A DNA stretch of 29,619 bases from a virus, in the IMG/VR virus record IMGVR_UViG_3300042549_007404, positions 1 to 29,619 of that record; one strand, given 5' to 3'. The notes beneath the pieces are model-generated. The model ran no database searches, was not told the origin of the DNA, and was given only the letters and a program-made list of their open reading frames with translations. Within the stretch, counting starts at the first letter, position 1. Every line of letters begins with the position of its first letter. Shown here one piece after another: positions 2,638 to 24,786 of this stretch. A program made the position numbers and the translations under genes.

Positions 2638-2667
2638 ACAAAAAAAAAGGGGGGTTTTACGCCCCCA
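2638..2667 (-). terminator. Rho-independent terminator after the major capsid gene
   Basis: On the minus strand a GGGGG stem, a short CGTAAAA loop and a CCCCC(C) arm are followed by a run of about ten T. It lies between the capsid stop and the start of the 508-residue surface protein. It probably limits read-through from the highly expressed capsid gene. Confidence 0.85.
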
Positions 2668-2682: not shown

Positions 2683-3726
2683 TTAGCAAGTATAATCGAA
2701 TACATCACCACAATTTTCAATGATAAAAATACCATCTTGTGTTGTGTCGCATCCGCCTGGAATAGCTTTGAAAAGCTCCATATAAACAGATGGATTATAC
2801 ATGATTTTATCACAATCGTGATCGATTCTTATTTCATAATCAACCTCTTGCGTTACCATTTCACCATTCACTCCCATCATTGGAACTGATTTTGTACTTC
2901 TTTTCAATGATTCCAAATCTTTCTTTTTAGAAGGGCTTACAAAATCAAACCATTCTACTAATTGAAACGCTCCAGCAGGGATTAGCATAAATGCGTTTTC
3001 ACCAATCTTAGCGTCTAAAGAGTAATCTTTGAACATTGGAATTGTATTGAATCCTAACAACTCTAATTGAGTGATAATAGAACCACCAACCAACATATAA
3101 TCGTTAATATCCATTTGAGCCTCAACCATCAATTTTTCAATAGCTACAACTGGGCTAAAATTAATTTGTGGGGTGTTTGTTAAAGGGTTTTTAACAAACA
3201 TTTTCCATTGACGGTAGTTTGTTGGAACTACTCTTGAAACAACCATATCAAGTACGATTTTATTCAATTCAACTAGAAATTTTCTATCCACTTCCATTAC
3301 TTTTTCAGTAAATTTAGACATTTCGTCTCTTTCACACCATGATGCAAAATCTTCATGTGATAACATCAAAGCTGCTTCCTCACCATTTTTACAAGTTGTA
3401 TATCTTGTATCGATTGTGAACTGCTCTTGACTTACCGATTCTCCGTATGTTACTTTGTCTTTGTCGCACTCAAAGTCTTTAGCGCAAACTGAAATACATA
3501 ATGGATTATCAAATTCCAAAATAACGGTTCTTCTTTTTCCAGGCGCACCAGTAAAAGAATCTTGAAGGCTTGTATATCTTCTATTTAAAGAAGATTTAAT
3601 AGCTGCCAACGTGCCTAAATTATTATAAAATCTTCCGTTTGGACTATTTTTAAGTCCGAAAAAATCCTCATAGTTTGCGATTTTTGGCAAACAAGTTATA
3701 GGATTAACTAATTTTGATTGTGACAT
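2683..3726 (-). CDS. Probable major capsid protein
   Basis: A 347-residue protein, a usual length for an HK97-fold major capsid protein. The call is by context more than by motif. It follows the scaffold-like gene, has its own promoter with a conserved upstream box, and is flanked on both sides by strong terminators, giving it an isolated transcript suited to very high expression. There is no signal peptide or membrane segment. A glycine/proline-rich middle and a C-terminal part with AFMLIPAGAFQLVEWFDFV look like the beta-rich domain of capsid proteins. Cysteines near the N-terminus (CISVCAKDFECDK) and at the extreme C-terminus (DYTC) could be structural. A different major virion protein is possible but less likely. 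Confidence 0.7.
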   Translation of the reverse strand: MSQSKLVNPITCLPKIANYEDFFGLKNSPNGRFYNNLGTLAAIKSSLNRRYTSLQDSFTGAPGKRRTVILEFDNPLCISVCAKDFECDKDKVTYGESVSQEQFTIDTRYTTCKNGEEAALMLSHEDFASWCERDEMSKFTEKVMEVDRKFLVELNKIVLDMVVSRVVPTNYRQWKMFVKNPLTNTPQINFSPVVAIEKLMVEAQMDINDYMLVGGSIITQLELLGFNTIPMFKDYSLDAKIGENAFMLIPAGAFQLVEWFDFVSPSKKKDLESLKRSTKSVPMMGVNGEMVTQEVDYEIRIDHDCDKIMYNPSVYMELFKAIPGGCDTTQDGIFIIENCGDVFDYTC

Positions 3727-3804: not shown

Positions 3805-3854
3805 CAAATTTAATGTTTATTTATATCACTAATTGTGTACTAATTTGCGAAATA
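3805..3854 (-). promoter_or_regulatory. Promoter of the capsid gene with conserved upstream box
   Basis: The -7 box TAAATTTG (3805-3812) fits the Bacteroidota TAnnTTTG consensus and lies about 80 nt before the capsid start codon. Exactly 25 bases upstream of it is a 22-bp box (3833-3854) that recurs with one mismatch at 10937-10958 at the same 25-base distance from another TAnnTTTG box. No good TTG -33 element is seen. A phage activator or repressor binding site replacing the -33 contact is an inference from the conserved position. Confidence 0.65.
3833..3854 (-). repeat. 22-bp promoter-upstream repeat, copy 1
   Basis: The plus-strand core TACTAATTTGCGAAATA (3838-3854) is identical to 10942-10958. 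Extending to 22 bases leaves one mismatch (G/A). The flanking sequence is not conserved, so this is not part of a longer duplication. Confidence 0.85.
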
Positions 3855-3880
3855 AAAAAGCCACCCTATAAAGAGTGGCT
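3854..3880 (-). terminator. Terminator after the scaffold gene
   Basis: Minus-strand stem AGCCAC...GTGGCT with a short loop, followed by TTTTTT. It ends the scaffold transcript and separates it from the capsid promoter immediately downstream. Confidence 0.85.
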
Positions 3881-3907
3881 AAAAAAATTAAAAAAAATGA
3901 ATGCGCT

Positions 3908-4735
3908 TTAATCTTCTAGTAACCTACTAGCGTTTTTGTTGTATTTGTAATTTGTAGCACCTTTGCCATCTATAGGAATATCTACCCTACCATCTGGTGC
4001 TTTTTCGGCTTTAATAACTCCCAATTCTTTGTACTTACTTTCTAAGTAATCTACAACGGTCATAAATTCACCTACTTTGCCTTGTTTCGGTATTTTCAAT
4101 CCTTTGTCATCAGTTGGGAATATTTGTCCATCAATCGTTTTTAATTTAGCCTCTTGCTCTATTTTTACATAAATTAAATCAAACATTGAATTGACATCAC
4201 CTAAAATTCTATCTTTGAAGTTAGCTTGATTGATTGCTGCCAAAGTGTGCTTTGTTTGGACACGTGTCATAAAATCGTTTTTAGAATTTTCGATTTCTGC
4301 AATTTTCGATTGCCATTCTTGATCCTTTGATTCCATTTTTTGCTCGTATTCAGCTAATTTTGTTTGCATTCCTAAAAGAAGTTCTTTGTCGCCACCTTGT
4401 TTTTTTGCCGAAATTTCATAGGCTTTTCTCAAATATTTGTGAGCGTCCTTTTTTTCTTCTTCAGTGAATAGCTTTTTTTCTTCTTCCGTAATTGAATACA
4501 ATTTGTCTACTTCCCTTGACTGAGTAGCCATAATAGCTAATTTTGCCTCGTTGAATTTTTGATTTTCTAATCCTTTCAAGTCCACTATTTTCTCAATAGG
4601 TATCGATTTTAAAAAATCATCACTGTTTAAAAATTGCTCTTTGTACTTTGACTCTATTTGAGCCATAACGGACGCTTTTGTTTCTTCCGTTACATCTTCG
4701 GGAATATCGATCCCAAATAATTCGTTAATGTTCAT
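3908..4735 (-). CDS. Probable capsid scaffolding protein
   Basis: A 275-residue, highly charged protein with long helical and coiled-coil stretches, clearest around residues 80-165 (runs of E, K and Q with heptad spacing). This is typical of scaffolding proteins, and it is encoded directly before the major capsid gene, the standard order. It has no cysteine-rich or membrane segment. The C-terminal 60 residues are less helical and basic (RVDIPIDGKGATNYKYNKN), as in scaffolds that bind the inner capsid surface. It has its own TAnnTTTG promoter and is followed by a terminator. No protease motif is visible. Confidence 0.7.
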   Translation of the reverse strand: MNINELFGIDIPEDVTEETKASVMAQIESKYKEQFLNSDDFLKSIPIEKIVDLKGLENQKFNEAKLAIMATQSREVDKLYSITEEEKKLFTEEEKKDAHKYLRKAYEISAKKQGGDKELLLGMQTKLAEYEQKMESKDQEWQSKIAEIENSKNDFMTRVQTKHTLAAINQANFKDRILGDVNSMFDLIYVKIEQEAKLKTIDGQIFPTDDKGLKIPKQGKVGEFMTVVDYLESKYKELGVIKAEKAPDGRVDIPIDGKGATNYKYNKNASRLLED

Positions 4736-4764
4736 TCTTAATTATTTAAGGTTAAAATAAAGTA

Positions 4765-4772
4765 CAAATTTA
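4765..4772 (-). promoter_or_regulatory. Likely -7 promoter box for the scaffold gene
   Basis: TAAATTTG on the minus strand lies 30 nt before the scaffold start codon and just after a strong terminator. No clear -33 TTG at 19 nt and no copy of the 22-bp box are present, so it would be controlled differently from the capsid promoter. Confidence 0.5.
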
Positions 4773-4796
4773 CAAAAAAAAAATTAATATAAATAA

Positions 4797-4831
4797 AATA
4801 AAAAAAAAGGCTACCCGTTTGAGTAGCCTTT
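4797..4831 (-). terminator. Terminator between connector genes and scaffold
   Basis: Perfect 9-bp stem AAAGGCTAC/GTAGCCTTT on the minus strand followed by a long T run. It closes the operon that starts at the putative tail tube promoter near 10.9 kb. Confidence 0.85.
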
Positions 4832-4855
4832 AAAGTTTTTAGCAATGTTTTATTT

Positions 4856-5299
4856 TTACTTGTTTCTTGGTTTTCTTTCTTTTACCAATTTCGTTTCTTC
4901 TGATACAATAGCGTCCATTGTTTCTACATTTTCAGATACTTCTTCATTTGTAGCGGTTTCGGGGCTTTTAACCTCCAAAGCTTCAACTCTTACGGGCTGC
5001 AATACTTCTACGCTTTTGGTAGTTCTTTCATTGAACGTTTTCCCGTGAAAAGGCTTGATAGTTGCGTCCTTTGCTGTTGGCAAAATTTCGATTACTTCGG
5101 GCTTCAAATTGTAGCCTCTTTGGCTCAACAAACCTTTATAATCAAAATTTCCAGCACCCGCTTTGCCTTTTGCCTTTAAAAAGGGTTGTCTAGTTGGATA
5201 GACTTCTGCTAATTTTGCTAACTCTTCATTTGATAATGAATTGATTTTTTCGATTGACCCCGCATCTAATACGTGTGGGTGAAATTCTTTAATTTCCAT
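4856..5299 (-). CDS. Unknown structural-cluster protein
   Basis: A 147-residue protein of unrecognised family. The N-terminal half (to about residue 75) looks folded, with a helical segment SIEKINSLSNEELAKLAEVY and a glycine-rich turn (KAGAGNFDYKG). The C-terminal third is a low-complexity acidic tail ending in a basic patch (VKERKPRNK). A disordered charged tail is common in connector and head-associated proteins, but no function can be assigned. It overlaps the membrane protein gene by 11 bases and is the last gene before a strong terminator. Confidence 0.65.
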   Translation of the reverse strand: MEIKEFHPHVLDAGSIEKINSLSNEELAKLAEVYPTRQPFLKAKGKAGAGNFDYKGLLSQRGYNLKPEVIEILPTAKDATIKPFHGKTFNERTTKSVEVLQPVRVEALEVKSPETATNEEVSENVETMDAIVSEETKLVKERKPRNK

Positions 5300-5642
5300 T
5301 TTGGTTAAATTTTAATATTAATAATAAGTTAATTCCGTATGCAAAAATTCCTATAATATCATTTATTTGAATAAATATAGGAATAAAAAAAAGACTAAGC
5401 CAAAAATTTAGGCAAAATCCACAAATAAATACTTTCAAAATTCCCAATTCTTCAATGTTTATTAAACACTCTTGAATGCTATATTTTTTCCCTTTCAATA
5501 GAAAAAGATATTTGATAAAAAAGTCTAGCGGTGCTTTTTTATAATTTACAAGTGGATTTCCAATCAAGAAAATCCAAAATTGTACAAATCCAATCAATCC
5601 AAAGATTGCAATTAGTTCATATAATATTCCTGAGTAGTGCAT
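5289..5642 (-). CDS. Small integral membrane protein in the head gene cluster
   Basis: A 117-residue protein with about three hydrophobic segments (residues about 5-30, 68-92 and 94-110). A positively charged loop (YLFLLKGKKYS) lies between the first and second. The motif CGFCLNFWLSLFF resembles the 'C-x-x-C-L-x-F-W' pattern of small DUF1360-type membrane proteins; that comparison is from memory and weak. Its start overlaps the previous gene by 31 bases. A membrane protein among virion genes could be a holin-like or superinfection-exclusion protein. Nothing in the sequence proves either. Confidence 0.65.
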   Translation of the reverse strand: MHYSGILYELIAIFGLIGFVQFWIFLIGNPLVNYKKAPLDFFIKYLFLLKGKKYSIQECLINIEELGILKVFICGFCLNFWLSLFFIPIFIQINDIIGIFAYGINLLLILKFNQNGN

Positions 5643-5926
5643 ATTGTAAAATTTGAAAATCCATCAATTGATAAAATAAAGCTATTGAACGCCACGCTAA
5701 AAGAATAGCAATAGTTTTCATTAATATCTGATAAATCGAAAATTAAAGGTTCACCCGCTAAAAATCTTTGACCTTTTATAATTCTTTTATTTAAAAAAAT
5801 TAATGTAACTTGATATAAGCCGTCTTGATCTGCAACAAAAGGCGTTTTTAATTTTGCCTTATTATCGCACGCAACCACCATTAGTTCACATAAATTTTTA
5901 GTACATTTATAGCAATTAGCACTCAT
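5612..5926 (-). CDS. Cysteine-rich small protein, probably beta-sandwich
   Basis: A 104-residue protein with a cysteine-rich N-terminus (C5, C8, C13, C20), suggesting a metal site or disulfides. The rest is a beta-rich body (YQVTLIFLNKRIIKG, EPLIFDLSDIN) typical of small carbohydrate-binding or tail-fibre sandwiches. The family is not recognised. It overlaps the neighbouring genes at both ends (11 and 31 bases), so expression is probably coupled. A virion accessory role is inferred from position. Confidence 0.6.
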   Translation of the reverse strand: MSANCYKCTKNLCELMVVACDNKAKLKTPFVADQDGLYQVTLIFLNKRIIKGQRFLAGEPLIFDLSDINENYCYSFSVAFNSFILSIDGFSNFTICTTQEYYMN

Positions 5927-6383
5927 CTTCTATACAATTTTCTTCTATTTGATAATTATGGGTTAATTCAACACCGATATATCCTATTGATTGCAAAGAT
6001 AATACATTTTTTATTATACTACCTTCTTTTTTCAATAGGTCTTCTTTATTCGATATAATCCTTTCTATTTTGAAATTTTCGCTACCAAAAGCTTGTTTTA
6101 ATTTTCTCAATACTTTGTCTAATTTTCTAGGAACTTTTGAATACGACACAAATAAATAGCGTTGTGAATAAATGTAGTCATCATTGCACCCACTTATTCT
6201 TATTGGAGTTCCCGTTGCATCGCCCAAAGGTCGCATATAAGCAAATTCACATTCTGTATCGGTAGGCATTAATGGCACAAAATCCACGCCATCAAAGGAT
6301 CCTGTTTGAAGCACGCCCCCAATGGTCATTTGCATTGCATCCATTTTGAAATTTTCAAAAAAATCGCATAATCTATTTTGCAT
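5916..6383 (-). CDS. Putative head-tail connector protein
   Basis: A 155-residue protein overlapping the upstream gene by 11 bases, in the usual place for neck or tail-terminator genes (after portal, gpF-like and tail-completion genes). It combines a beta-rich N-terminal half with a helical stretch (KVPRKLDKVLRKLKQAF, about 84-100) and a C-terminal beta strand pair. It has cysteines at the N- and C-termini (CDFFE, CIEDEC). The family is not identifiable by eye, so the connector call is by position and size only. Confidence 0.5.
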   Translation of the reverse strand: MQNRLCDFFENFKMDAMQMTIGGVLQTGSFDGVDFVPLMPTDTECEFAYMRPLGDATGTPIRISGCNDDYIYSQRYLFVSYSKVPRKLDKVLRKLKQAFGSENFKIERIISNKEDLLKKEGSIIKNVLSLQSIGYIGVELTHNYQIEENCIEDEC

Positions 6384-6831
6384 TGAATATTGTTTTTAAA
6401 TCTTCTAATATTAATTTTACGCTAAGTTCATTAGCTATTTTTTCTTCTTCTTCCGATAGCGTTAATACGGTTCGTTCCAATTTACCCGAGTGCCTTTTTT
6501 GAATATCGTCTAGCTTTTTTTTGTCTTCTTGAATCGTTATTACTACCTCCGTTCCTTTGTTTACGGTTCTAATTGAGTTCATTAGATTTTCAGTTAAACT
6601 CAAATCTACTACTTTTGTTTGCTTACCCAAAGAGGCTCTATAATTTGCGTAAGTCTTTGAGTATGGTTTTGGGCTTGATTTGCCGTCCACGTCCTTATAT
6701 CCTTTTGAAGAATCAAAAACCCTTGACATCATTTCGCCACGTGCCTGATTTAAAGCAAAAAATATATGATCTAGCGGTTCGTTACTAGATGCGTATTCTT
6801 TTAATCGTTCAAGTTTTTTTAGTATATCCAT
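6373..6831 (-). CDS. Putative tail-completion/neck protein
   Basis: A 152-residue basic, mostly helical protein. Its composition and layout recall HK97 gp10-like or Mu gpG-like neck proteins: an N-terminal helix, a central S/G-rich loop that mentions SKGYKDVDGK, then 'LSLTENLMNSIRT' and beta strands (TEVVITIQ) before a C-terminal helix. The 'L-T-x-x-L-x-x-S-I' pattern followed by a short beta hairpin is typical of that group. It lies three genes downstream of the putative portal gene and overlaps the next gene by 11 bases. Confidence in the specific role is moderate. Confidence 0.55.
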   Translation of the reverse strand: MDILKKLERLKEYASSNEPLDHIFFALNQARGEMMSRVFDSSKGYKDVDGKSSPKPYSKTYANYRASLGKQTKVVDLSLTENLMNSIRTVNKGTEVVITIQEDKKKLDDIQKRHSGKLERTVLTLSEEEEKIANELSVKLILEDLKTIFNAK

Positions 6832-7808
6832 TAGAACCTTGCGCTTGCTTTAAAATTTTGAGCCTCACAAATTACACACCAGTCACTAGATTTTGATAGT
6901 TCAGCGTGTAAAATATCTACCATTCCTTTTGTGGTTTTTTTGCCGTATTCATTTATTCCGAACATTTTTTCTCTATATTGGGTATTTAAAACTCCTATGA
7001 AATTTTGCGCACTTTCCTGAGTTACCGTCATTTCATTAATACGTCTTGAATGCGATAATTTATTATAAAATTCGATTCCAAATTGAATAGCTATAATATT
7101 AGTAAGTAAATCTTTTACCGTATTGGTTGCTATTAAATCACAAATTACATTACTTACATCACAAGTCAATGAAGCTGAAACAATAAACTTATAAAGTATA
7201 TTTGAAGGCGCACCATCTTTTACGCCACTTTGAGCTAAGTTCGATTTTTTCCCACTACAAGGCTTGCAACTTTGATCATAATCTTCAATATTGTAAAATT
7301 CAAGCGTTGAATCTTCATTTGTGATTATTACAGACTTTCGGGTAGTTGAATAATCCAAAGTAGCCATACAAATTGTGTCTTTTACGGCTGTTAATTGGTA
7401 TTCTTTAACCTCGAATCCATCGTTTAATTGAATGATAAAATTCCCATCAAATTTAGGTTTAAATCTTATTTCTTTGATAGACGTTACAGAATATTTAGAG
7501 TATGAAGTGTCTAAAATTTTAACACCTCCAGTTCCAGTAACTACATAGCTATTAAAACCGTATGTATTTATCATATTGTCTACGGTGCTTTTTGCCGAAA
7601 CATTGGTTTGCGCAAAACTCAAATCCCCTAAAACTTTATTTTTTGCAATTTTTAGTAATTGTTCCCCCAACGCGCGCCCCGTCAATGTGTGTTCATCTGC
7701 TACCATTGCTAATTCTGTAGTGTTGATTCCTACATAATCTTCTATGTATAATTTACCAGCCAAAGGCTCGCTGAAACATTTAAGTCCGATTAAATCTAAA
7801 TTGCACAT
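6831..7808 (-). CDS. Unknown virion protein of the connector cluster
   Basis: A 325-residue protein without signal peptide or membrane segment. The N-terminal half is mixed alpha/beta, the middle (about 105-180) is beta-rich, and a CKPC motif (about 182-185) sits in a flexible lysine/serine loop. The C-terminal third is helical and ends with a WCVICEAQ motif. Single cysteine pairs (CxxC) at two places could bind metal. It shares one base with the following gene and lies three bases after the gpF-like gene. It may be a minor head protein, but I do not recognise the family. Confidence 0.6.
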   Translation of the reverse strand: MCNLDLIGLKCFSEPLAGKLYIEDYVGINTTELAMVADEHTLTGRALGEQLLKIAKNKVLGDLSFAQTNVSAKSTVDNMINTYGFNSYVVTGTGGVKILDTSYSKYSVTSIKEIRFKPKFDGNFIIQLNDGFEVKEYQLTAVKDTICMATLDYSTTRKSVIITNEDSTLEFYNIEDYDQSCKPCSGKKSNLAQSGVKDGAPSNILYKFIVSASLTCDVSNVICDLIATNTVKDLLTNIIAIQFGIEFYNKLSHSRRINEMTVTQESAQNFIGVLNTQYREKMFGINEYGKKTTKGMVDILHAELSKSSDWCVICEAQNFKASARF

Positions 7809-7811
7809 ATT

Positions 7812-8603
7812 CTATATTTTTATTATTGGTATAAATTCGTGTCTGCACCCCCAATGAAGTCTTAATGTAGGGATTTTTAATATATCTTTTTTTTCACCTA
7901 TAAAGCCATTTTTTAGTGCCAAAGGCATTATTTCACTTTCAATCTCTTTTAACGTTAAATCTCGCCCCATTTTAAGCCATTTTTTGCATTGTGGGCTTGA
8001 AGTTTCTATCTCCGTTCCGATTATTTTATATCCAGTTATTTTATCTTGGTATTTGTCCGTTATGGCTTGATCGATAACTCCGTTATAAGATTGACTAGCT
8101 TGTAAGGCGGTGTTTTTTACATACCTACTTAAATTTGTAGGTGCGTCTCCTTTTTCAATCGATGTTTTTAACGTCTTTTCCATTTCTGTAATTGACGTAC
8201 CGGATTGAATATTTTGAAGTATTATTTTTCGGAGTGGCTGGTTGAATTTTTCATTTAATCCTTGCTCGCTATAATAGCTCAAATACTCGTCTATTTGTAT
8301 TTTTAGACTATCATTTACTTTGAGTTTTTGGATTTCATAAGTCTTTAATTTTTCAGCTCCGTGGTCTTGAATCTTTGCCGTTATTTTTTGCAAAGATTTT
8401 CTATAAGCATTGGAATTATAAAAAGAACGTATTGATTTTTTAACTATACTTTGAGTAGTTTCGGTTTGCTCTAATCGACCGCCCGTAGACTTTGTATTTT
8501 TTTCTACTTCGGTCAATAATGCTTTTAATAGGATTTTGTCTAGTTCTTTAAAATCCTTGTCATTATCGATTAATTCAGTAAGTTTTTCAGCTATACTAAG
8601 CAT
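7812..8603 (-). CDS. Mu gpF-like head morphogenesis protein
   Basis: A 263-residue protein whose C-terminal part carries the signature of the phage Mu gpF/SPP1 gp7 minor head family. A segment 'TEIETSSPQCKKWLKMGR' is followed about 45 residues later by 'LHWGCRHEFIPI', matching the family's 'S-x-x-C...H-x-x-C-R-H' arrangement (with W-G before the C). The N-terminal 160 residues are helical. Family members sit in the procapsid near the portal, and the gene starts inside the end of the putative portal gene (8-base overlap), the classical portal-gpF pair. This supports the portal call next door. Confidence 0.8.
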   Translation of the reverse strand: MLSIAEKLTELIDNDKDFKELDKILLKALLTEVEKNTKSTGGRLEQTETTQSIVKKSIRSFYNSNAYRKSLQKITAKIQDHGAEKLKTYEIQKLKVNDSLKIQIDEYLSYYSEQGLNEKFNQPLRKIILQNIQSGTSITEMEKTLKTSIEKGDAPTNLSRYVKNTALQASQSYNGVIDQAITDKYQDKITGYKIIGTEIETSSPQCKKWLKMGRDLTLKEIESEIMPLALKNGFIGEKKDILKIPTLRLHWGCRHEFIPIIKI

Positions 8604-10248
8604 TCGTACCTATTCTAGTTTTAATTTGATTTACTATTTCAGCATCCTCCAATAAGAATAAATCGCTATTTTCAGCCATCATTTGCATCAATACAGGATA
8701 TGCTAAATTGTGTATTCTCCAGTCGTTATCATTGATTGTAGCGGTATTGGATAGTATTTGTAACTCTTCTGTTGTATAGAATAAAAACAAATCTACTTTT
8801 TTAAGTATATTGATAATTCTATGTATTTGGCTTGTCTTTGAAATATATCTTTTTACAAATAATTCAACTTGCTGCCCTTTTATGAATTGAGGTGCTTTTG
8901 ATTCCAAAATTTGCACAAACATTTCATAGGCTTGCGTTTCTTCTAAAATAGCATAGCTTTTCGGCTGCTCAATTACAATAGTTTCTAAATTTTCAAGTGT
9001 CAAAAGTCCATTCACAGAAGTATTCATATTGGAATAAATCTCAATGCCTATTCTACTTAACCAAGTAAACATAGCCTCAAGTGTTATATGTTTACTTTCT
9101 TCCGTTTCAGGTAGTCCGCTTTTAATTTTCTTTTGGATATATATTTGGTCTTCAGCTTTTTCAATCGAATCTAGCCAAGTATTATTTGAATCTTGTTTTA
9201 TATCTACAGGTGGGATATAAAACTCAACCGCTGGAGTAGAATCGTACCCTCCAGTATCTTTATTTGGTCTTTTTTGATAAACATTAGCTACCGATTGAGT
9301 GGTTTTAAAGCCCGTACCATTACAAGGTTCGCACGTTTCCCTCCCCGTTGGGCAAGCGTCCGTTACATCACATTTAACATCTCCGTAGCCTCTACATTCT
9401 GGGCAAGAATCGTGTATTTCTGACATTCTAGGGTACCCGTAGATATTCTCAACTCCAACGTACATACGTCTTTGAAGTAATGCTATATTTCCAAATGGAA
9501 TGTACCCATTTACAGGACTTTCACAAATGCCATCTTTTTGAATATTTACGCCCGTTGGTGTCCAAGGTTGTATTTCTTTGTCAAAATTAATTATTCTAGT
9601 TACACTTATTTTTTCAGCATATTCAACTTCAATGTACTGATTTCTAGATACAAATACAACGGTTTTTTTAATATATTCAGCTTTTTCACCTATCTTATAC
9701 TTAATCGCTTTATTTTTATTTCTATTTACAAAGTTTTTATACTCATCTTTGATTTCGTACTCGCTTCTATCCAAGTCAATATAAACTATATAATCTTTTT
9801 CAAGTCTTAATAGTTCGGGGGTTTCTACAAAATGTATTTCCTTTTTGTCTTCTACTATTCTATAAGTTGATACCGTGTTTGGATCGCTTGCAGTTGTTTT
9901 TTTAATGAAGTCCAAAAAATACTTTTTAGGGATTTCGTTTTTAATCAAATATTCGATTGATTTTTCGCTACCTATGAAGTCCGCTGATGTATTGCTTACT
10001 ATACGTCCAATATTATCTATTCCACGCCATATAGAGCCTTTTGTTACAGCCTCATAATTCTTTATTAAAAATTCTGTAAATTCTCTATCTTCATTTGGAT
10101 AGTTATCTACAATAGCTTCGTATAAGTACCCTTTTGTATGTACTTGCAGTTCTTTTCTTTTTTCAATAAATTTAAAATTTAAAGAGCTATCTATATCCTT
10201 TTCAAGATACTTTGATAGCTCCTTAATATTATTTTCAGTAAAAATCAT
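8596..10248 (-). CDS. Putative portal protein with DnaJ-like zinc-finger insertion
   Basis: A 550-residue protein directly upstream of, and overlapping, the gpF-like gene, the position and size of a portal protein. The helical C-terminal part includes 'QIHRIINILKKV', and an N-terminal helical and alpha/beta region fits as well. Unusually, residues 282-313 contain two CxxCxGxG motifs (CPECRGYG and CEPCNGTG) with two further cysteines between them (C293, C299), the layout of the DnaJ cysteine-rich zinc domain. I do not know this insertion from portal proteins. No helicase, nuclease or protease motif is present. The portal call rests mainly on context; another minor capsid protein is the alternative. 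Confidence 0.55.
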   Translation of the reverse strand: MIFTENNIKELSKYLEKDIDSSLNFKFIEKRKELQVHTKGYLYEAIVDNYPNEDREFTEFLIKNYEAVTKGSIWRGIDNIGRIVSNTSADFIGSEKSIEYLIKNEIPKKYFLDFIKKTTASDPNTVSTYRIVEDKKEIHFVETPELLRLEKDYIVYIDLDRSEYEIKDEYKNFVNRNKNKAIKYKIGEKAEYIKKTVVFVSRNQYIEVEYAEKISVTRIINFDKEIQPWTPTGVNIQKDGICESPVNGYIPFGNIALLQRRMYVGVENIYGYPRMSEIHDSCPECRGYGDVKCDVTDACPTGRETCEPCNGTGFKTTQSVANVYQKRPNKDTGGYDSTPAVEFYIPPVDIKQDSNNTWLDSIEKAEDQIYIQKKIKSGLPETEESKHITLEAMFTWLSRIGIEIYSNMNTSVNGLLTLENLETIVIEQPKSYAILEETQAYEMFVQILESKAPQFIKGQQVELFVKRYISKTSQIHRIINILKKVDLFLFYTTEELQILSNTATINDNDWRIHNLAYPVLMQMMAENSDLFLLEDAEIVNQIKTRIGTNA

Positions 10249-10249
10249 C

Positions 10250-10879
10250 TTAGATGCTTGCCGGAACTATTGTACTTAATCCTGGTATTGTGAAATTTTG
10301 AAGTGTTGAAAGGTTTCTAGGTGTCCATTGGATTTTAAATTGCAAATCTTCAAACTCTTTTGGATTGTTTGAAATAATGTTGTCAAAATCATTCAATGTA
10401 CCTTTTCCTATCAATATAATTGAATCTGCTGGGTCACAACGTCTAACCGCTAAGTTATAATTGTTTAATGCTCCACTCAATAGCAAATCAGCCATATTGT
10501 GCGTTTTCCAATCTCCTGATTCTTTGTCCATTGCTTTTACAGAAATAGTCAACTCCCAAGTGATAGCAACAGCCTCATCCCCATTGCAACCGCCCACAAA
10601 TGCCTTTTGGATTTCTGCTTTTTGAATAGCTCCAGTCATACGTCCAATACGTCTCATTTGCTCGCTTGCAGGTTTTGATGTATCGTTGATGTCCGCCCAC
10701 CAAGCCAAGTCCATAATATCGGTGTCGTTCAAATCATAAGAACAAGGAATAAAATACAGATCATTTAATCCATTCTTAATGATTTTCAAGTCTTTAAGAC
10801 AAGTAGGTAGGGTGTCTAAAACCCCACTATTACAATTGGGTAGACAAGATAAAATATCGATGTTATTTACAGTAGACAT
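10250..10879 (-). CDS. Putative major tail (tube) protein
   Basis: A 209-residue, soluble, beta-rich protein with size and composition of a siphophage tail tube subunit. Features seen include an N-terminal cysteine-containing stretch (CLPNC, LPTCLKDL), a central 'AITWELTISVKAMD' strand pair and a C-terminal 'KIQWTPRN'. It is the first gene after the only other copy of the promoter box found before the major capsid gene, which suggests an abundant virion protein. It is followed one base later by the putative portal gene. A head or decoration role cannot be excluded. Confidence 0.5.
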   Translation of the reverse strand: MSTVNNIDILSCLPNCNSGVLDTLPTCLKDLKIIKNGLNDLYFIPCSYDLNDTDIMDLAWWADINDTSKPASEQMRRIGRMTGAIQKAEIQKAFVGGCNGDEAVAITWELTISVKAMDKESGDWKTHNMADLLLSGALNNYNLAVRRCDPADSIILIGKGTLNDFDNIISNNPKEFEDLQFKIQWTPRNLSTLQNFTIPGLSTIVPASI

Positions 10880-10908
10880 ATATTTATATTTTAATAATAA
10901 TTTAAATA

Positions 10909-10958
10909 CAAAAATAAGTCATTAAATATTCTTTATTTGTATACTAATTTGCGAAATA
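10909..10958 (-). promoter_or_regulatory. Promoter of the putative tail tube/head operon with conserved upstream box
   Basis: The -7 box TATTTTTG (10909-10916) lies 30 nt before the start codon of the putative tail tube gene. Exactly 25 bases upstream of it is the second copy of the 22-bp box (10937-10958) found at the capsid promoter. The box begins just after the stop codon of the GIY-YIG gene, so it has its own start signal and is independent of the endonuclease transcript. Confidence 0.65.
10937..10958 (-). repeat. 22-bp promoter-upstream repeat, copy 2
   Basis: Matches 3833-3854 at 21 of 22 positions, including the 17-base core TACTAATTTGCGAAATA. The distance to the -7 box (25 bases) is the same in both copies while the intervening sequence differs. 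Confidence 0.85.
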
Positions 10959-10961: not shown

Positions 10962-11687
10962 TTAAATGTATTCAAATATTGTGTTGTTTTTTCTGTGACC
11001 ACTCAATTTGCTTCTTAATGTATTCTCGTTTAATACAAATATTCTGCACATTTCAGCTAATGAATTATATGTTTCTCCATTTTCTTTATTTATTACTTTT
11101 TTAGAAGTTGCGCTATTTTCGCTTATTTTTTTTCTAGTTTCATTAGATAGTTTTTTACCAAGCATCCAAGTATTTTTTCCTTTTGCAGACTTACTTAATT
11201 TTTCTTTATGCAAATCACTTAATTTTTTACCATACCAATATCCTTTCTCTTTTTTTTGTGAATCGCTTATTTTTCTTTTTGTTTCTTCACTAAGTTTTCT
11301 ACCCTTATTTGCATCACTTATTTTTCTTTTGTGTAATTCTGTAAGTTTTTTGGCTTTTAGTTTTTTTCTGGTTTCTTCACTAATAGTTCCGCTTTTTCCA
11401 TTTGCTTGAGTAAGCATTAAGTTTAACCCATTTTCTCCTAAAGCCTTATGTATATCTTGCCAAAAACGTTCACGTTCATTTAATAAATCAATTAAACATT
11501 CTTCTATTATTTCAAATTTATGATTTTCAACTCCATATTTTACAAATGAATTATATAGTTTTTTTTGTGATTTACAATGCAAATTTCTATATTTTATCCA
11601 TCTTTTTAATATATTTATTGATTGTCCGATGTATATTTTATCATTCAATAAGTTTGTTATTTTATAAATACCTACTATTTTATTCAT
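10962..11687 (-). CDS. GIY-YIG homing endonuclease with NUMOD3 repeats
   Basis: A 241-residue endonuclease. The GIY-YIG domain fills residues 1-90: GIY at 6-8, YIG at 19-21, the catalytic Arg at 29 and the Glu of NERER at 71. It is followed by several NUMOD3-type DNA-binding repeats (about 105-195; units like 'SEETRKKI' and 'LSDLHKEKL') and a C-terminal NUMOD1-like helix-turn-helix (NSLAEMCRIFVLNENTLRSKL). Such proteins cut a specific DNA site to spread their own gene. It sits between the accessory cassette and the structural operon, downstream of a structured non-coding region and directly upstream of the tail tube promoter. An AGGAGG about 35 nt upstream of its start is unusual for this phylum but too far away to act as a ribosome-binding site. 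Confidence 0.9.
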   Translation of the reverse strand: MNKIVGIYKITNLLNDKIYIGQSINILKRWIKYRNLHCKSQKKLYNSFVKYGVENHKFEIIEECLIDLLNERERFWQDIHKALGENGLNLMLTQANGKSGTISEETRKKLKAKKLTELHKRKISDANKGRKLSEETKRKISDSQKKEKGYWYGKKLSDLHKEKLSKSAKGKNTWMLGKKLSNETRKKISENSATSKKVINKENGETYNSLAEMCRIFVLNENTLRSKLSGHRKNNTIFEYI

Positions 11688-11689: not shown

Positions 11690-12035
11690 TTTTTTATTAA
11701 ACATTATTCTCCTATTACCTCCTAGAACTATACTTTGTTTCAGAACCTCAAAATAAGCCAAAAACAAAAATAACTCTAAAAAGTTTGTGTTGAAGTTGCT
11801 TAAACCCAACTAGCAATATAAGCATTTGTGCCTCCACCTCATTCCAAGGTATGTACGTAGAACAATAAGCCGTACAATTTTCACTCACTACGTTTTCCTT
11901 TCGGGTTCTAGTTGCTGGTTGTTAAGGAAAAAACAGAGCCAGACTTTTATGTAGCGTCTTAATTACTATTTTATTTTATGATTTTAATCTATTGAAACGC
12001 TTTATATGGTAGCGAGTAGAACCTTAGATTATAGG
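11690..12035 (-). ncRNA. Candidate structured non-coding region upstream of the GIY-YIG gene
   Basis: About 345 bases with no convincing reading frame. It contains several perfect complementary segments: TTTTCCTT 11893-11900 with 11924-11931; ACGTAG 11855-11860 with 11888-11893; TGCTTA 11797-11802 with 11819-11824; and CAACTAG 11807-11813 or CTAGAAC 11722-11728, both able to pair with the same GTTCTAGTTG segment at 11905-11914. Mutually exclusive pairings of this sort are typical of folded RNAs. It lies directly before a homing endonuclease, so a decayed group I intron or another mobile RNA is possible, but I could not identify an intron core. No promoter is seen inside, so it would be transcribed by read-through or from upstream. 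Confidence 0.4.
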
Positions 12036-12036
12036 C

Positions 12037-12135
12037 ATAAAAAAAGCCAACCCAATTGTGGAACTCGGGGCTGGCTTTAAAAACTATATTCAAATAAAAT
12101 TATAGCAATTTAGACTACCTGAGCTCCACCAAAGG
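12037..12135 (-). ncRNA. Candidate ~100-nt small RNA with its own promoter and terminator
   Basis: A good TAnnTTTG promoter (12141-12168) and a strong intrinsic terminator (12039-12078) enclose about 100 nt without a gene. The RNA can form a hairpin CTATA/TATAG (12084-12088 with 12101-12105). In addition, nine bases near its 5' end (12121-12129) can pair fully, with one G-U, with the loop of the terminator hairpin (12058-12066), giving a pseudoknot. It could act as a small regulatory RNA. The alternative is a leader that terminates before the non-coding region and GIY-YIG gene. The start site is estimated from the -7 box. Confidence 0.5.
12039..12078 (-). terminator. Terminator of the candidate small RNA
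   Basis: Stem AAAGCCA/TGGCTTT reinforced by inner GGG/CCC pairs, followed on the minus strand by seven T. The loop contains the segment that can pair with the 5' end of the RNA. Confidence 0.85.
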
Positions 12136-12140
12136 TTTTG

Positions 12141-12168
12141 CAAAGATAATACTTTTTTTTTATTTCAA
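12141..12168 (-). promoter_or_regulatory. Promoter of the candidate small RNA
   Basis: Minus-strand -7 box TATCTTTG (12141-12148) with a TTG 17 bases upstream (12166-12168). It begins immediately after the stop of the 63-residue gene, and no start codon with a convincing reading frame follows before the terminator. Confidence 0.6.
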
Positions 12169-13023: not shown

Positions 13024-13054
13024 TTTAAATGTTTTTAGTTGTTAAATAATAGTG

Positions 13055-13084
13055 CAAAGATAAAGCATATTTTACAAATGTCAA
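13055..13084 (-). promoter_or_regulatory. Strong promoter of the lipoprotein cassette
   Basis: Minus strand: TTG (13082-13084), 19 bases, then TATCTTTG (13055-13062), an exact match to the Bacteroidota consensus spacing. The whole stretch from the A/T-rich upstream tract to the start region is nearly identical to the promoter of the recombination operon at 28835-28864. The gene starts about 30 nt downstream. Confidence 0.9.
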
Positions 13085-13148
13085 GAGTTTTTTTTAATAA
13101 AATTTCATTTATTTTTAGAATCCCAATGTTTATAAGGGTTTCGGAGCG

Positions 13149-14377: not shown

Positions 14378-16363
14378 TTATCTAAATTCTTTTACTTTTA
14401 TCGTTAATTCATATTCTTTTTTTATCACTTCTTTTACTTGTCCTTTGTATGTTATTCCTTTATAAGTCCATTGAATTACACGCCCCTCCTTTCGGTTGTT
14501 TTCATTATCAAATCCAAAAAATTGTAAATAGTTACAACAAGCTACTAATGTAATTTCCCTCAAAGAGTTATTAGAATTTCTGAATTGATAGTTATCTGTT
14601 TGCTCATGTAATTCAGGATATAAGTTCCCTAAATAATAAGAATCGAAATATAAATCATAATTGAATACGTTTAATTTTTGATAGCCAGTTTGCCATTGAT
14701 TGACCCAATCTATATTTGGTTTATTATATTTTGGATTTTTTTGAATATTTCCAACTGGATCGATTATTACTTTTGCCTCATTCATAGGCTTACCAGCTTG
14801 AAGTCTTATAATTGATAAGTTCGATTTTTGCCCCGTTCCGTATAATTGGATTGCTCCTTGGTGACACGATGTTTCATAGGCAAATTGGTCTTTAATATCA
14901 CTTGCGTATATAAAGCTATTTACAAGCCCCAATAATGCCCCGCTAGCAACAAGCCCCCATATTACTAACTGAGCTGGAAATGTAACCACAACCGCACCAA
15001 CCCCCGCACCCGCAGCTGGAAAAGTGTACGATATAACTTGTATCGCAGCATATACATTTAATATAGCACATAAAGTAGCGGATATTAAACGCCCCATGTT
15101 TGGTATATCATTCAAATAATCCAATCCAAAACCATCCCCCCAAAATCCTACTGGTGCAAAGTAATTTCTTCTATCCTCCTTTCCACTAAATAAAGGATTA
15201 ACCACGCCACCACTTGTACTTACATAGTCATTGTAAGCACGTTGCATAGTATTACTTTTTTGATCGCCACTATCCATTGTATATAAGTAACCTATCGCAG
15301 CCTTTCTTTTATCGCTATTGAACGTTTTTTTATGTTCTATAACATCGTCCTCATTGAAGTTGAAAGTAAAAACCGTGTTTGGTGTGTCTTTTTTCAATCT
15401 CAATACAAGCGTTTGCGTACTTGTATTTAGTTCATATTGCATATTATAAACCTTGCATAGCTCTGCTAAAAAATCGGTCGCGGAATTGACAAAAACATTG
15501 TTAAAAGAAAACTTTGTGTCAGGTGCAGTGCAACTTCCATCCAACCTAGTCATAAAGTCACCAGCGTATGGCGCTACTATAGCATCATTTTCAAATTGAT
15601 TATGAAATGGAGTGTCTGCCGTCCATCCATGCTTAGCGCAAAAATTATCTATTATTTCGTATATCTTTGGACAAGCTAAAAATTTCCCAAACCCCATGTT
15701 TTCAACCCTTGCTTCACCTAAATTTAAAAAACCAGATACTATGCTGCCAAACCCTACATTTATTATTGGAATAGTTCCAAACCCTTGTATAAACATTATC
15801 AACCCAATATTAATCCCGTGTTGAATAGGCGTGTTATGTATGCAAACTTCGTGTGTATCAAAATCCTTTCCACCAGAAAACCAACCCTGCCAATCATCAA
15901 AAATTGAAACAATATCTAAAAATGATTTATCTCTATTTGCCTCAACCAATGGAAAATTTATAGCGCATTCGGCTTCGTACTCGCTTACTTCTATATTGTC
16001 GGGTCTTATTTCATATCCTATTAATTCGATTCCACAATCGTCCGTAATTCGTACGTCAAACCAATTTAACTCGCTACAAGGTGTTGAAGTAAGCCAGTTC
16101 ATTATTTGTACTTTTGCATCGCTCACTACTTCTAATGAAGTTGAAGTGGATTTATCCCTTATTAGAGTGCCACCATCGCCCATTTTTAACGTCAATTCAA
16201 TAGACTTCAAGTTATTCACATAGTCTGTTATATCCGTCCACGTTGTAGGCACGCTCCCAGGTACATATTCAGCTACAAATTGACCGCTAATGTTATTACA
16301 TTGAACTATAACGTTATTTCCAGCCTCGTCTTTGTGTTGACCTCTTCTAATTTCTATCTTCAT
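14378..16363 (-). CDS. Baseplate hub/tail tip protein with hydrophobic stretches
   Basis: A 661-residue protein directly after the tape measure gene (one-base overlap), the place of distal-tail or tail-associated hub proteins. The N-terminal 140 residues are beta-rich (KSIELTLKMGDGGT, WFDVRITDDCGIEL, a Dit-like look). Two long hydrophobic regions are notable: residues about 183-215, and about 425-487, the latter rich in alanine, glycine and valine. These could insert into the host membrane on DNA delivery. The C-terminal 170 residues are again beta-rich, ending in EVIKKEYELTIKVKEFR. The hub call is inference from position. Confidence 0.6.
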   Translation of the reverse strand: MKIEIRRGQHKDEAGNNVIVQCNNISGQFVAEYVPGSVPTTWTDITDYVNNLKSIELTLKMGDGGTLIRDKSTSTSLEVVSDAKVQIMNWLTSTPCSELNWFDVRITDDCGIELIGYEIRPDNIEVSEYEAECAINFPLVEANRDKSFLDIVSIFDDWQGWFSGGKDFDTHEVCIHNTPIQHGINIGLIMFIQGFGTIPIINVGFGSIVSGFLNLGEARVENMGFGKFLACPKIYEIIDNFCAKHGWTADTPFHNQFENDAIVAPYAGDFMTRLDGSCTAPDTKFSFNNVFVNSATDFLAELCKVYNMQYELNTSTQTLVLRLKKDTPNTVFTFNFNEDDVIEHKKTFNSDKRKAAIGYLYTMDSGDQKSNTMQRAYNDYVSTSGGVVNPLFSGKEDRRNYFAPVGFWGDGFGLDYLNDIPNMGRLISATLCAILNVYAAIQVISYTFPAAGAGVGAVVVTFPAQLVIWGLVASGALLGLVNSFIYASDIKDQFAYETSCHQGAIQLYGTGQKSNLSIIRLQAGKPMNEAKVIIDPVGNIQKNPKYNKPNIDWVNQWQTGYQKLNVFNYDLYFDSYYLGNLYPELHEQTDNYQFRNSNNSLREITLVACCNYLQFFGFDNENNRKEGRVIQWTYKGITYKGQVKEVIKKEYELTIKVKEFR

Positions 16364-19300
16364 TATGCGTTTTTACTTTTGAATTTTTCATAATCAACTG
16401 AAGTAACCAATCCGTGTACGCCTTTCTCGTCTACTGAGAAATTAACCGAAAATCTTTTGAAGGCTTCAACTTGCATCATTGATATTTTTTTCAATTCCTT
16501 AAATTCTTTTTTTAGATCCGAAAGTTCGTTTTTTTCAGCCACCACTTTTGATGGTCTTGGTTTTTCTACAGTAAATGAAGGCATGCCACCCATTTCTAAT
16601 AATTTTGGCAAATCTTCATTTTTGATTCCTTTTAGTTTCTCGTTTATGTAACTTGGAACAATACGCTCGCCTTCGTGTGCCATAATTGGTATAGTGTCTT
16701 TTCCTTTTGGATTGTTACCCAATTGTAAATATTCAGTACCGTCATAGAACTTTGGACGTGCTGCACTCAATTGATTTAATAATGAAAAACCAGTAGCAAC
16801 CGCCCCTGCTATTGTAGCGATTCCAGTAATAACCCCAACAGCCCCTCCTTGCGCTATTTGAGCCACCGCTCCTGCAATAGCTACTAAAATTTGAGACGCT
16901 TGAACGGCTGCATCAATTTCTAATTGTCTTTGCGCTGCGGCTTCCCTTTTAGCTTCTAATTGTGCCAGACGTTCTTCTTCAATTCTTAGATATTCAGTAT
17001 TTCCATTTTCGGCTATTTTTGTAGCGTCCGAAACTCTACGCTCCTGTAATTTAATAGCTTGGTCATAGCTATCTATTTCGGCTTGGTTACGTTGTTTTAT
17101 TATATCAATCGTGGATAGTATAATATTATTGAACTGCTCACCTATTTGTTTGCCCTCTTCATTTGACACTCCGAAAATCAATGCAAATAGATTGCTTTTT
17201 TTATCTTTTGCGATTCCCTCCGCTATTTGTGTCTTTTTTTCTGCAATATCTTTGCCTAAAACGTCCGCTTGTTTCAATAACTCGTCACGGCTTTTTTGCG
17301 CTTGCTCGCCTTCAACTCCAATTAATTGAGCGTACCTCTCTTGAATACTTTGTAATTCTTTTTCGTCTTTTGCTATTTCGTTATCTAAGTATCTTTGATT
17401 GTAGGTTTTTTGGATATTTTCTACATTTTTTTTATATTGTTCAAAAGTAATTTCACGATTTTTAAGGCGTTCGGCTTCAAATAGAATATCTTCGGCAGCC
17501 TTTCTATCTTCGCTTGTATTTAGTCGGCTCGCCTGGTCTTCTATCAGTTGTATTTGAGATTCAAAGGCTTTTTTTGCTATTTCTATTTTTCTATCTTCTT
17601 TACGCTGGAATGCAGTCAAAGATAAATCATAAGTTGCATTTTCTATTTGTGCTATTATTTCAGCCTCTTTTTGTGGGTCTTCCTTATATTTTTCTTTTGC
17701 CTGCTTAATTAGTTCGGCTTTTGATTTTTCAAGTGCCTCAATTTCTGTTTTATATGTCAATTCAGATATTTCTGTTTCACGTTGAATATCATTTTGAATT
17801 AAATCCAAACGCTCTTTGTTGTAATCTTGATTTAATTTTAAAATATCATCATTGATTTTTTGGCGTTCTTCTGCTAATTGTTTGTTGTATTCTCGAACGG
17901 CTTTTAACCGTTCGCTATTATTCAATTCTTCATTTTTCAATAATAAATCATTATATTGATATTGAGATAGCTTTTTTTCTTCTAAGTCTTTTTTCGTAAG
18001 TTCATTTCGTTCTTTTAATTTTAAAGAATACTCAGCATTTATTTTATCCAACCCTTCTAATTCTGAAATCCTTAGTGTTTCGGTTTGTTTTTTTAAATCT
18101 GCAACTCTATCTTTGTATACATTTTCGATTTCCTTTGCAGTATCTTTTTTTGATTTCACTAGTTTTTTATCATCATCTATTTCGAGTTTTGAAGATGCTA
18201 ACTTATCCTTAACTAATTTATCTAAAAAGAAATTTTCTGTTTCGTTATATTTCTTTCTATCATTTACTAATGTTCCTAGTGTTGCTTTTTGTTGCAAAGC
18301 TCTATCTGCTTCACTTAATCCATTTAATTTTCTTATTTTACCTATTTCTATAGTAGCTTTTAACTCACCATCTAATTTCTTTTGCTCTATTTCGGCTATT
18401 TTACCCTCAATGGCCTGCGCTCTTGCACGCGCTACTAACGCCAAATTTACCTCGTTGATTACTTTTGACAAGTCACCATACAAAATTTGCTCTTTTGATA
18501 AATTTCCAAAATAATTAGGATATTGTTTTTGCAACTCATCTACGGCTTTTAACCTTTCTTTTTTAGATAGAGTTTCGCTTTGTGCAACCGTTGTTAATAC
18601 TTTGAGTTGTGCAATATCTTCACCAGCTTGTTTATTAGATTCTTTTTGTAAATCATTGTATTCTTTTTGTGTTTTTGACACGCCACTCAACGCCTCTTCT
18701 ACTTTATCCCAATTTGCAATCAATAAGCCTATTGCTACAATTGCAGCACCTATTCCACTTGCTAATAATGCTTTGTTGAAAGTTTGTTGAGCAGCGGTTG
18801 CCAGTCCTTGAGTTTCTGCTAAAAAAATATTACTTCTAGCGGATAGATTTGTCCATAATGTTTTTGCCTCCAATGCCAAACCCTCCTTATTAGTCAAAAA
18901 TGTACTAATTTCTTGAAAACCTTGTGCCACTTGTTGAACGGCTAATAATTTATTGATTGACTCCTGTAGTTCCTCTGTTTCGGTTCCCGTCAATCCCAAA
19001 ACACCTATATATGTTTGATATGCCCCTATAGCAGTATTTATACCCTCCAATCCCAAATCTACTTTGTATGTATCACTTGACGCTTTTTTCAAAGCACCTT
19101 GTAAGTCACTTTGTGCATCTATTAAGTCAGATGTTTCGGCACTTAATTTTCTATAAGCCTCCGTGTTTTCTTCTCCAACCAATACCATTTGTTGCAATGC
19201 TACCGTATTAGCTCTTATTTGCGCTCTAAATGATGTTTGTTTTTTTTCAGCCGTTTCACTTTCAACTCCAAACTTAGTTGTTTTTTTCGAGGCTTCTTCA

Positions 19301-19653
19301 ATTGCTTTTTCGGTCTGCGAAATGATAGCCCCCAAAGTTTTAACCGCTTGCGGATCACTTGCTTTTTTTAGTTCATTTTTCAATGTGTCTAAAAAGGCTT
19401 TTATCTTTGGAGTGTTTTTGTCGAAATTATCAAATATCTTATTGAACTCCGAAAAGTCAGCACCACCTCCAGCACTTAATAATTTTTGTAGTTTTTGTAG
19501 TTCAGTTACAGGTTTGTTTAAATTTACGCCTTCGGTGTCTTTTGCTAACTTTTTCATTGAACTATCCAAATCATTTACGGACGTAACCGCTGTTTCGATA
19601 TTCTTTACAAAACTTTCAGCATCAAATTTGAGTTTAAAAATTTCCTCTGCCAT
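16363..19653 (-). CDS. Tail tape measure protein
   Basis: A 1096-residue protein, the longest in the window, dominated by coiled-coil helices (clear between about residues 400 and 860). A hydrophobic segment lies at about 296-314 (LLASGIGAAIVAIGLLIANW), and a second hydrophobic, alanine/glycine-rich region lies near 920-965. This is the standard architecture of tape measure proteins, which set tail length and are ejected with the DNA. With the usual 0.15 nm per residue the tail would be roughly 160 nm, pointing to a siphophage (inference). A motif PKGKDTIPIMAHEGERIVP near the C-terminus is common in tape measure proteins. It shares one base with the hub gene. Confidence 0.92.
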   Translation of the reverse strand: MAEEIFKLKFDAESFVKNIETAVTSVNDLDSSMKKLAKDTEGVNLNKPVTELQKLQKLLSAGGGADFSEFNKIFDNFDKNTPKIKAFLDTLKNELKKASDPQAVKTLGAIISQTEKAIEEASKKTTKFGVESETAEKKQTSFRAQIRANTVALQQMVLVGEENTEAYRKLSAETSDLIDAQSDLQGALKKASSDTYKVDLGLEGINTAIGAYQTYIGVLGLTGTETEELQESINKLLAVQQVAQGFQEISTFLTNKEGLALEAKTLWTNLSARSNIFLAETQGLATAAQQTFNKALLASGIGAAIVAIGLLIANWDKVEEALSGVSKTQKEYNDLQKESNKQAGEDIAQLKVLTTVAQSETLSKKERLKAVDELQKQYPNYFGNLSKEQILYGDLSKVINEVNLALVARARAQAIEGKIAEIEQKKLDGELKATIEIGKIRKLNGLSEADRALQQKATLGTLVNDRKKYNETENFFLDKLVKDKLASSKLEIDDDKKLVKSKKDTAKEIENVYKDRVADLKKQTETLRISELEGLDKINAEYSLKLKERNELTKKDLEEKKLSQYQYNDLLLKNEELNNSERLKAVREYNKQLAEERQKINDDILKLNQDYNKERLDLIQNDIQRETEISELTYKTEIEALEKSKAELIKQAKEKYKEDPQKEAEIIAQIENATYDLSLTAFQRKEDRKIEIAKKAFESQIQLIEDQASRLNTSEDRKAAEDILFEAERLKNREITFEQYKKNVENIQKTYNQRYLDNEIAKDEKELQSIQERYAQLIGVEGEQAQKSRDELLKQADVLGKDIAEKKTQIAEGIAKDKKSNLFALIFGVSNEEGKQIGEQFNNIILSTIDIIKQRNQAEIDSYDQAIKLQERRVSDATKIAENGNTEYLRIEEERLAQLEAKREAAAQRQLEIDAAVQASQILVAIAGAVAQIAQGGAVGVITGIATIAGAVATGFSLLNQLSAARPKFYDGTEYLQLGNNPKGKDTIPIMAHEGERIVPSYINEKLKGIKNEDLPKLLEMGGMPSFTVEKPRPSKVVAEKNELSDLKKEFKELKKISMMQVEAFKRFSVNFSVDEKGVHGLVTSVDYEKFKSKNA

Positions 19654-19654: not shown

Positions 19655-20179
19655 TTAATTGTTTTTTAAAGTTGACAATACCGATTGATATGCATAGTGT
19701 GCCTCATACTCAGTCTTAAACCTACCTAAATGCCTATTTTTGCCGTCTATGTATATACATCCTTCCCATTTATTAGCTCTTTTATTCCAACTAACACCAG
19801 TATATTGACTAGTCGTACTTTTATTAAAGAAATGTTTTTCTATATTTTGCCTAAATGTTATTAATTGCAAATTTTCTAATCTGTTGTCAGTTTTAATATC
19901 GTTTTTGTGGTCTGGCACCATTTTATTTGTACCATCTGGAATGTGTCCTAGAAATGCCATAGCGACAAGTACGTGGACTCCATATCCTTTTATTTTTCCA
20001 TTTTTGGAAAGTATCGCCACATTGTATCCATTAGTAATTCCTGGCTTTAAAATCCTTTCTTTTGATATATATATTCTTTTACCATTATCTATTTCCCTAC
20101 GCAATGATTTTACATTTCCTAAATTTGATACTTTATAAAGTCCTTCATATCCAAGAATATCTTTATATATTTCTTCCAT
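19655..20179 (-). CDS. HNH homing endonuclease with NUMOD4 and AP2 domains
   Basis: A 174-residue protein with three parts. A NUMOD4 domain comes first (about 1-45: 'DILGYEGLYKVSNLGNVKSL'). An HNH core follows (about 69-115: H69, PDHKND, then NRLENLQL). An AP2 DNA-binding domain ends it (about 123-170: YTGVSW, WEGCIY, HLGRFKTEYEAHYAY). Freestanding homing endonucleases of this build invade phage genomes. This one sits between the tail chaperone and the tape measure gene, with its own -7 box just upstream, so it may be expressed independently. Confidence 0.93.
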   Translation of the reverse strand: MEEIYKDILGYEGLYKVSNLGNVKSLRREIDNGKRIYISKERILKPGITNGYNVAILSKNGKIKGYGVHVLVAMAFLGHIPDGTNKMVPDHKNDIKTDNRLENLQLITFRQNIEKHFFNKSTTSQYTGVSWNKRANKWEGCIYIDGKNRHLGRFKTEYEAHYAYQSVLSTLKNN

Positions 20180-20197: not shown

Positions 20198-20205
20198 CAA
20201 AAATA
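20198..20205 (-). promoter_or_regulatory. Possible -7 box of the HNH-AP2 gene
   Basis: TATTTTTG on the minus strand, 18 nt before the HNH start codon, fits TAnnTTTG. No TTG at the expected distance is seen. Confidence 0.35.
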
Positions 20206-20973: not shown

Positions 20974-21203
20974 AATTCGTTATATATTTTTTTTGATGTT
21001 TCACAAAATTGTAAATCGTATGGCATCTTTTTCACAATGTTATAGACTGCAAAGTAGCTACGTTTATTTTTGTAGTCAAAGATAGACAAAATTTCCTTAA
21101 TCGGTACATTTAAGTTGTAGTATAGATAGAAAATTACTACTCTTTTTCTAATATTAGTTTCTTTTGACTTTTGCCAAAATAGCTTAACTTCTTTGCGTGT
21201 CAT
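20961..21203 (-). CDS. Small helix-turn-helix-like protein after terminase
   Basis: An 80-residue basic protein overlapping the end of the large terminase gene by 20 bases. Residues about 20-60 (VVIFYLYYNLNVPIKEIL, then SIFDYKNKRSYFAVYNIVKK) align by eye with the C-terminal part of the 94-residue protein at 27372-27656, which resembles DnaA domain IV. It may bind DNA, but the third 'H-T/S-T-V' element of DnaA is lost. The function is unknown. Confidence 0.6.
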   Translation of the reverse strand: MTRKEVKLFWQKSKETNIRKRVVIFYLYYNLNVPIKEILSIFDYKNKRSYFAVYNIVKKMPYDLQFCETSKKIYNELCTK

Positions 21204-24771: not shown

Positions 24772-24786
24772 TTAATCTAATTTTTA

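Follow-up and report, generated by a model that had tools for sequence, protein, structure and literature searches.

A 22-nucleotide box in fixed register with two primary-sigma promoters of a phage with a probably Flavobacterium-like host

The DNA analysed here (the window) is a 29,619-base IMG/VR virus record, IMGVR_UViG_3300042549_007404, whose minus strand carries nearly all genes. Our subject is a 22-nucleotide (nt) sequence, the box, that occurs in it twice, each time upstream of TAnnTTTG, the primary-sigma element of Bacteroidota, and ahead of a gene. An earlier note on this DNA had reported the two copies at 3833-3854 and 10937-10958, with one mismatch between them, and minus-strand TAnnTTTG motifs at 3805-3812 and 10909-10916; copies, mismatch and motifs were all recovered at these positions. 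The two sites comprise:

3854-3833, minus strand: box copy A, TATTTCGCAAATTAGTACACAA
3812-3805, minus strand: primary-sigma (-7) box of promoter A, TAAATTTG, 20 nt downstream of box A
2683-3726, minus strand: gene of 347 amino acids (aa) behind promoter A, plausibly the major capsid protein by its position
10958-10937, minus strand: box copy B, TATTTCGCAAATTAGTATACAA
10916-10909, minus strand: primary-sigma (-7) box of promoter B, TATTTTTG, 20 nt downstream of box B
10250-10879, minus strand: 209-aa gene behind promoter B, weakly suggested to be a tail tube

Read on the minus strand, the box has the consensus TATTTCGCAAATTAGTA(C/T)ACAA, and its copies differ at a single base (G at 3837 versus A at 10941, plus strand). 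The gap between box and TAnnTTTG is exactly 20 nt at both sites, which bears out the identical spacing reported earlier but not its value of 25 bases, a distance that applies when measured from a 17-nt core rather than from the full box. The intervening spacers are dissimilar, as had been observed, and conservation between the two promoters is essentially confined to the box and TA..TTTG, which is the pattern expected for two separately contacted sites. TAnnTTTG lies upstream of a gene on its coding strand in both cases, 30 and 79 nt before the start codons. The 17-mer TACTAATTTGCGAAATA has exactly two occurrences (chance expectation, 0.39 matches at ≤3 mismatches), and the window holds no third copy of the box with five or fewer mismatches; the next best match anywhere has six, in keeping with the claim that no other promoter in the window carries the box. 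The two box regions have no common predicted RNA fold, and an RNA element was rejected as the function of the box on this ground.

To gauge how readily such a pair might arise by chance we compared the window with shuffled sequence. When the window was dinucleotide-shuffled 200 times, 13 of the shuffles contained two 22-mers differing at no more than one position, and 1 did so at the sequence complexity of the box. A promoter-anchored scan, which collects upstream sequences repeating in exact register with TAnnTTTG and did not use the box itself as input, returned the box pair as the strongest registered repeat of the window (22 nt); across 300 shuffles such repeats extended to 17 nt at the longest and none reached 20 nt, with the qualification that the shuffles carry ~52 TAnnTTTG sites versus 90 in the real sequence, which reduces the number of pairs in them roughly threefold. 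With the reversed control anchors GTTTnnAT and TTTGnnTA, no registered pair emerged in the window. Only two modules emerged from the scan of the window, the 22-nt box and CTTGACATTTGTAAAAAAT, the latter at promoters 13062 and 28842. Similar scans in other phages do give long duplications. In Bacteroides phage VA7, two intergenic minus-strand TAnnTTTG promoters (39020 and 26552) likewise share extended upstream sequence in exact register with TATATTTG, so the present phage is not alone in having repeated promoter modules; the VA7 module differs, however, in that its similarity covers the whole promoter, including the -33 TTG, and runs past the -7 box, and its sequence is unrelated to that of the box described here.

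TAnnTTTG occurs 90 times in the window against 51 expected, and the closest recognizable proteins are those of phages of Flavobacterium and other Bacteroidota; the host is therefore taken to be a member of the Bacteroidota, probably Flavobacterium-like. In F. psychrophilum the motif is located at -12 to -5 (PMC9723704). On that numbering either copy of the box would extend from about -54 to -33, with its centre at -43.5, and would thus take, under the same assumption, the fixed position abutting or overlapping the -35/-33 region that is characteristic of class II activator sites. The -7 consensus of Bacteroidota primary-sigma promoters is common to both boxed promoters (PMC9723704), the upstream box being additional to this consensus, and the TTG at about -33 is absent from both (TTA and ATA instead). 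The unboxed promoters 13062 and 28842 have TTGACA beginning 22 nt before the TA, and CTTGACATTTGTAAAA with TTG 22 nt upstream is common to the two. The surrounding minus-strand segments 13046-13097 and 28826-28877 share CTTGACATTTGTAAAA.AT..TTATCTTTGCACT at 85% over 52 nt, and this pair may represent another class of promoter, lacking the box but having a good -33 TTG, which is perhaps active early or constitutively.

The genes and terminator-like structures around the boxed promoters include, besides the two genes listed above:

3859-3880, minus strand: intrinsic-terminator-like hairpin with T-tract, just upstream of box A and after a 275-aa scaffold-like gene
2649-2666, minus strand: intrinsic-terminator-like hairpin after the 347-aa gene
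8596-10248, minus strand: 550-aa second gene of operon B, guessed to be a portal from its size and neighbours
7812-8603, minus strand: 263-aa gene after the 550-aa gene, whose only NCBIfam match is the SPP1 gp7 minor capsid family (E=0.012, below cut-off)

Being flanked by the two hairpins, the 347-aa gene probably depends on its own promoter. The earlier note had called the genes downstream of the two boxes the probable major capsid protein and the probable tail tube, names that are plausible by position but not established. The 347-aa protein had no match in Pfam, PHROGs or NCBIfam, and the PDB gave only noise at E>0.1, while the sole profile match of the 209-aa protein was to TIGR01611 tail_tube of NCBIfam (E=0.054; 13.3 bits versus a cut-off of 102.75). 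Pfam, PHROGs, the PDB and AlphaFold2 yielded nothing usable for either boxed gene, the structure predictions for both proteins having a pLDDT of 31-32. Searches for homologues of 2683-3726, 10250-10879 and 8596-10248 found none. The label "scaffold-like" for the 275-aa gene, which has no family match, is our interpretation, based on its position and on a charged, helical sequence.

We conclude that the box pair is a real, promoter-registered, phage-specific site, most likely for a transcription factor. Its geometry would be that of an activator working beside the primary sigma factor, and we give roughly even chances to the box being the binding site of a sequence-specific activator, probably phage-encoded, at two primary-sigma promoters. 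Host RNA polymerase would recognize TAnnTTTG at -12 to -5 relative to the predicted transcription start, while the activator, bound at about -54 to -33, would retain the enzyme at otherwise weak promoters. This would switch on the 347-aa gene (from 3726) in concert with the 209-aa/550-aa head-tail operon (from 10879), presumably late in infection. The earlier proposal of a phage-specific late activator or repressor site thus stands as regards a phage-specific regulatory site in fixed register at two promoters, with "late" kept as a presumption. Between activator and repressor, the position of the box makes the former more likely, a choice that sequence by itself does not decide. If an activator is indeed at work, the box gives a defined sequence from which to approach the timing of virion gene expression by a Bacteroidota phage that uses the host polymerase, and it could serve as bait for the regulator, with the two promoters as switchable expression parts in flavobacteria.

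Two characterized phage systems provide precedents. In phage Mu the Mor protein recognizes a 16-bp element with its centre at -43.5, which stands in for the -35 element (PMC4390567), and the Mu middle promoter Pm resembles the boxed promoters in that the site is centred near -43.5, beside a primary-sigma promoter, and takes the place of the -35 element (PMC4390567). The present box differs in having no clear dyad and the host sigma factor is a different one; moreover, no Mor/C-family activator was matched among the window proteins scanned, in a record that may be incomplete. In phage T4 the MotA box at -30 replaces the -35 element and the host -10 element is retained (PMC2988021), so that T4 middle promoters, like the boxed promoters, substitute a phage element for the -35 while keeping the host -10 element at fixed spacing (PMC2988021). 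The MotA box, however, has its centre at -30, is ~10 nt long, tolerates mismatches and is used at nearly 60 promoters, whereas the present box is 22 nt long, lies further upstream and has two copies; it matches a TGCTTtA-type MotA sequence centred at -30 in neither sequence nor position, and no AsiA- or MotA-like genes were seen in the window. A more specific proposal, which we hold only tentatively, is that of a Mor/MotA-like switch in which a dedicated phage activator with a novel recognition sequence would act with the Bacteroidota primary sigma factor (TAnnTTTG, weak -33) to co-activate the head-tail operon and the monocistronic probable capsid gene; a limited literature search found no phage activator described for Bacteroidota.

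Candidates for the regulator itself are encoded in the window:

28873-29052, minus strand: 59-aa ribbon-helix-helix-like protein, candidate regulator (phrog_25647; weak RelB match, E=0.0038)
27372-27656, minus strand: 94-aa protein, weaker candidate (phrog_36 transcriptional regulator, E=0.024)
20961-21203: third candidate, helix-turn-helix-like by eye only

The first two, as small DNA-binding-like proteins, could act in trans. The 59-aa protein shares 63% identity with proteins of the Flavobacterium psychrophilum phages 6H, 23T and 2A, and BLASTP of 20961-21203 and 27372-27656 against the DnaA-like protein of phi10:1 gave nothing. The record may be incomplete, in which case the regulator could be encoded outside it.

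The search for further copies that the earlier note had proposed, covering the window and flavobacterial phages and widened to other Bacteroidota, returned the two copies in the window and no credible copy in IMG/VR, in GTDB genomes or in nine other Bacteroidota phages (in full FCL-2, 11b, VA7, 6H and P12002S; in part RAP44, phi10:1, phi19:1 and FpV4). IMG/VR was queried with the exact 17-mer and with relaxed box-plus-promoter patterns, and its matches were read as chance, one lying within a DNA polymerase gene (L004), one within the tail gene of an unrelated phage (L011) and two antisense within a single conserved coding region (L034 and L035). GTDB gave seven matches, whose spacers ranged from 21 to 28 nt and most of which were in unrelated taxa, against a rough chance estimate of ~5; these were assessed by spacing, taxon and approximate expected count only. 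A blastn search of each boxed promoter against phages returned, among the matches listed, only weak ones to unrelated phages. A second contig of the same phage (L005, 99.9%) spans only window positions 28768-12379, outside both boxes. Its match to the window ends at 12379 and its final 33 bases (16392-16424) differ, which may point to a variable region near that position, immediately ahead of the endonuclease segment.

Several observations weigh against an activator site. The box is known from two copies on one contig, and no related phage carrying the boxed region was found; nor was a clear dyad common to the two copies seen when they were read by eye for inverted repeats. Several promoters that lack the box (for example 4765, 13266 and 20198) likewise have a weak -33 element or none, so its absence from the boxed promoters is only suggestive. 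Neither the promoter at 4765-4772, ahead of the scaffold-like gene, nor that at 20198-20205, ahead of the HNH/tape-measure operon, has the box, which therefore marks a subset of virion genes rather than acting as a general late-gene signal. None of the window's proteins has been tied to the box as its regulator, and no similar box stands at a promoter in phages 6H and P12002S, both of which encode proteins related to the ribbon-helix-helix candidate, a mild argument against 28873-29052 in this role.

The main rival, which we nevertheless regard as unlikely, is that the box is the operator of a phage- or host-encoded repressor that silences both promoters until it is removed. The same positional evidence can be cited for a repressor, as the box extends into the -33 region, from which a bound protein could obstruct polymerase, and the window does encode small DNA-binding-like proteins; the box stops 20 nt short of TAnnTTTG, however, overlapping neither this motif nor the likely start site, and a spacing fixed at 20 nt, together with the lack of a -33 TTG, is more to be expected of an activator. 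We consider it improbable that the box serves host factors only, either as an UP-like upstream sequence touched by RNA polymerase or as the site of a host regulator. AT-rich DNA directly upstream of -33 is indeed where the alpha C-terminal domain binds (PMC4390567), but contacts with an AT tract do not need the specific TTTCGCAAATTAGTA core that is kept base for base, and the box-plus-promoter pattern is no commoner in Bacteroidota genomes than the rough chance expectation. We judge it very improbable that the box belongs with the GIY-YIG homing endonuclease gene (10962-11687), whether as the target of the enzyme or as an end sequence travelling with the gene, and is not a promoter element: although copy B begins 3 nt past the endonuclease stop codon and the protein has NUMOD3 DNA-binding motifs, 46 related GIY-YIG loci contain no box match within five mismatches, no endonuclease adjoins copy A and the identical TAnnTTTG spacing at both sites would be left unexplained. 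Least probable of all is a functionless chance repeat or local-duplication remnant, for although a 22-mer repeat with one mismatch arises in ~6% of shuffles of this AT-rich DNA, same-strand register with TAnnTTTG in two intergenic gaps was not matched in 300 shuffles, and the unrelated flanks and downstream genes argue against a recent duplication.

Elsewhere the window encodes the recombination genes Erf and exonuclease, together with NinG, and the following packaging and tail genes:

22515-22955: terminase small subunit
21184-22515: terminase large subunit
16363-19653: tape-measure-like protein, resembling those of Flavobacterium, Riemerella and Bacteroides phages

Homing endonuclease genes, all on the minus strand, lie between the structural and packaging genes, namely the GIY-YIG/NUMOD3 gene at 10962-11687 and two HNH genes at 19655-20179 and 22973-23599.

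Further intergenic features were observed on the minus strand. The segments 25859-26003 and 24772-24892 share CTATAGACGT, a 10-mer that may be shared by chance; the former folds well (z -3.2) into a hairpin with a T-rich tail, and both are possibly small RNAs. In 12030-12145 a TATCTTTG promoter is followed by a stable fold (z -2.3) and a terminator-like end with no open reading frame (ORF); no Rfam match above threshold was found for this segment, a possible small RNA or leader. Finally, a promoter-like AAAAAA..TATTATCTTTGCAA repeat occurs at 5991-6012 and 12138-12159, its first copy lying inside ORF 5916-6383 and ahead of 5612-5926.
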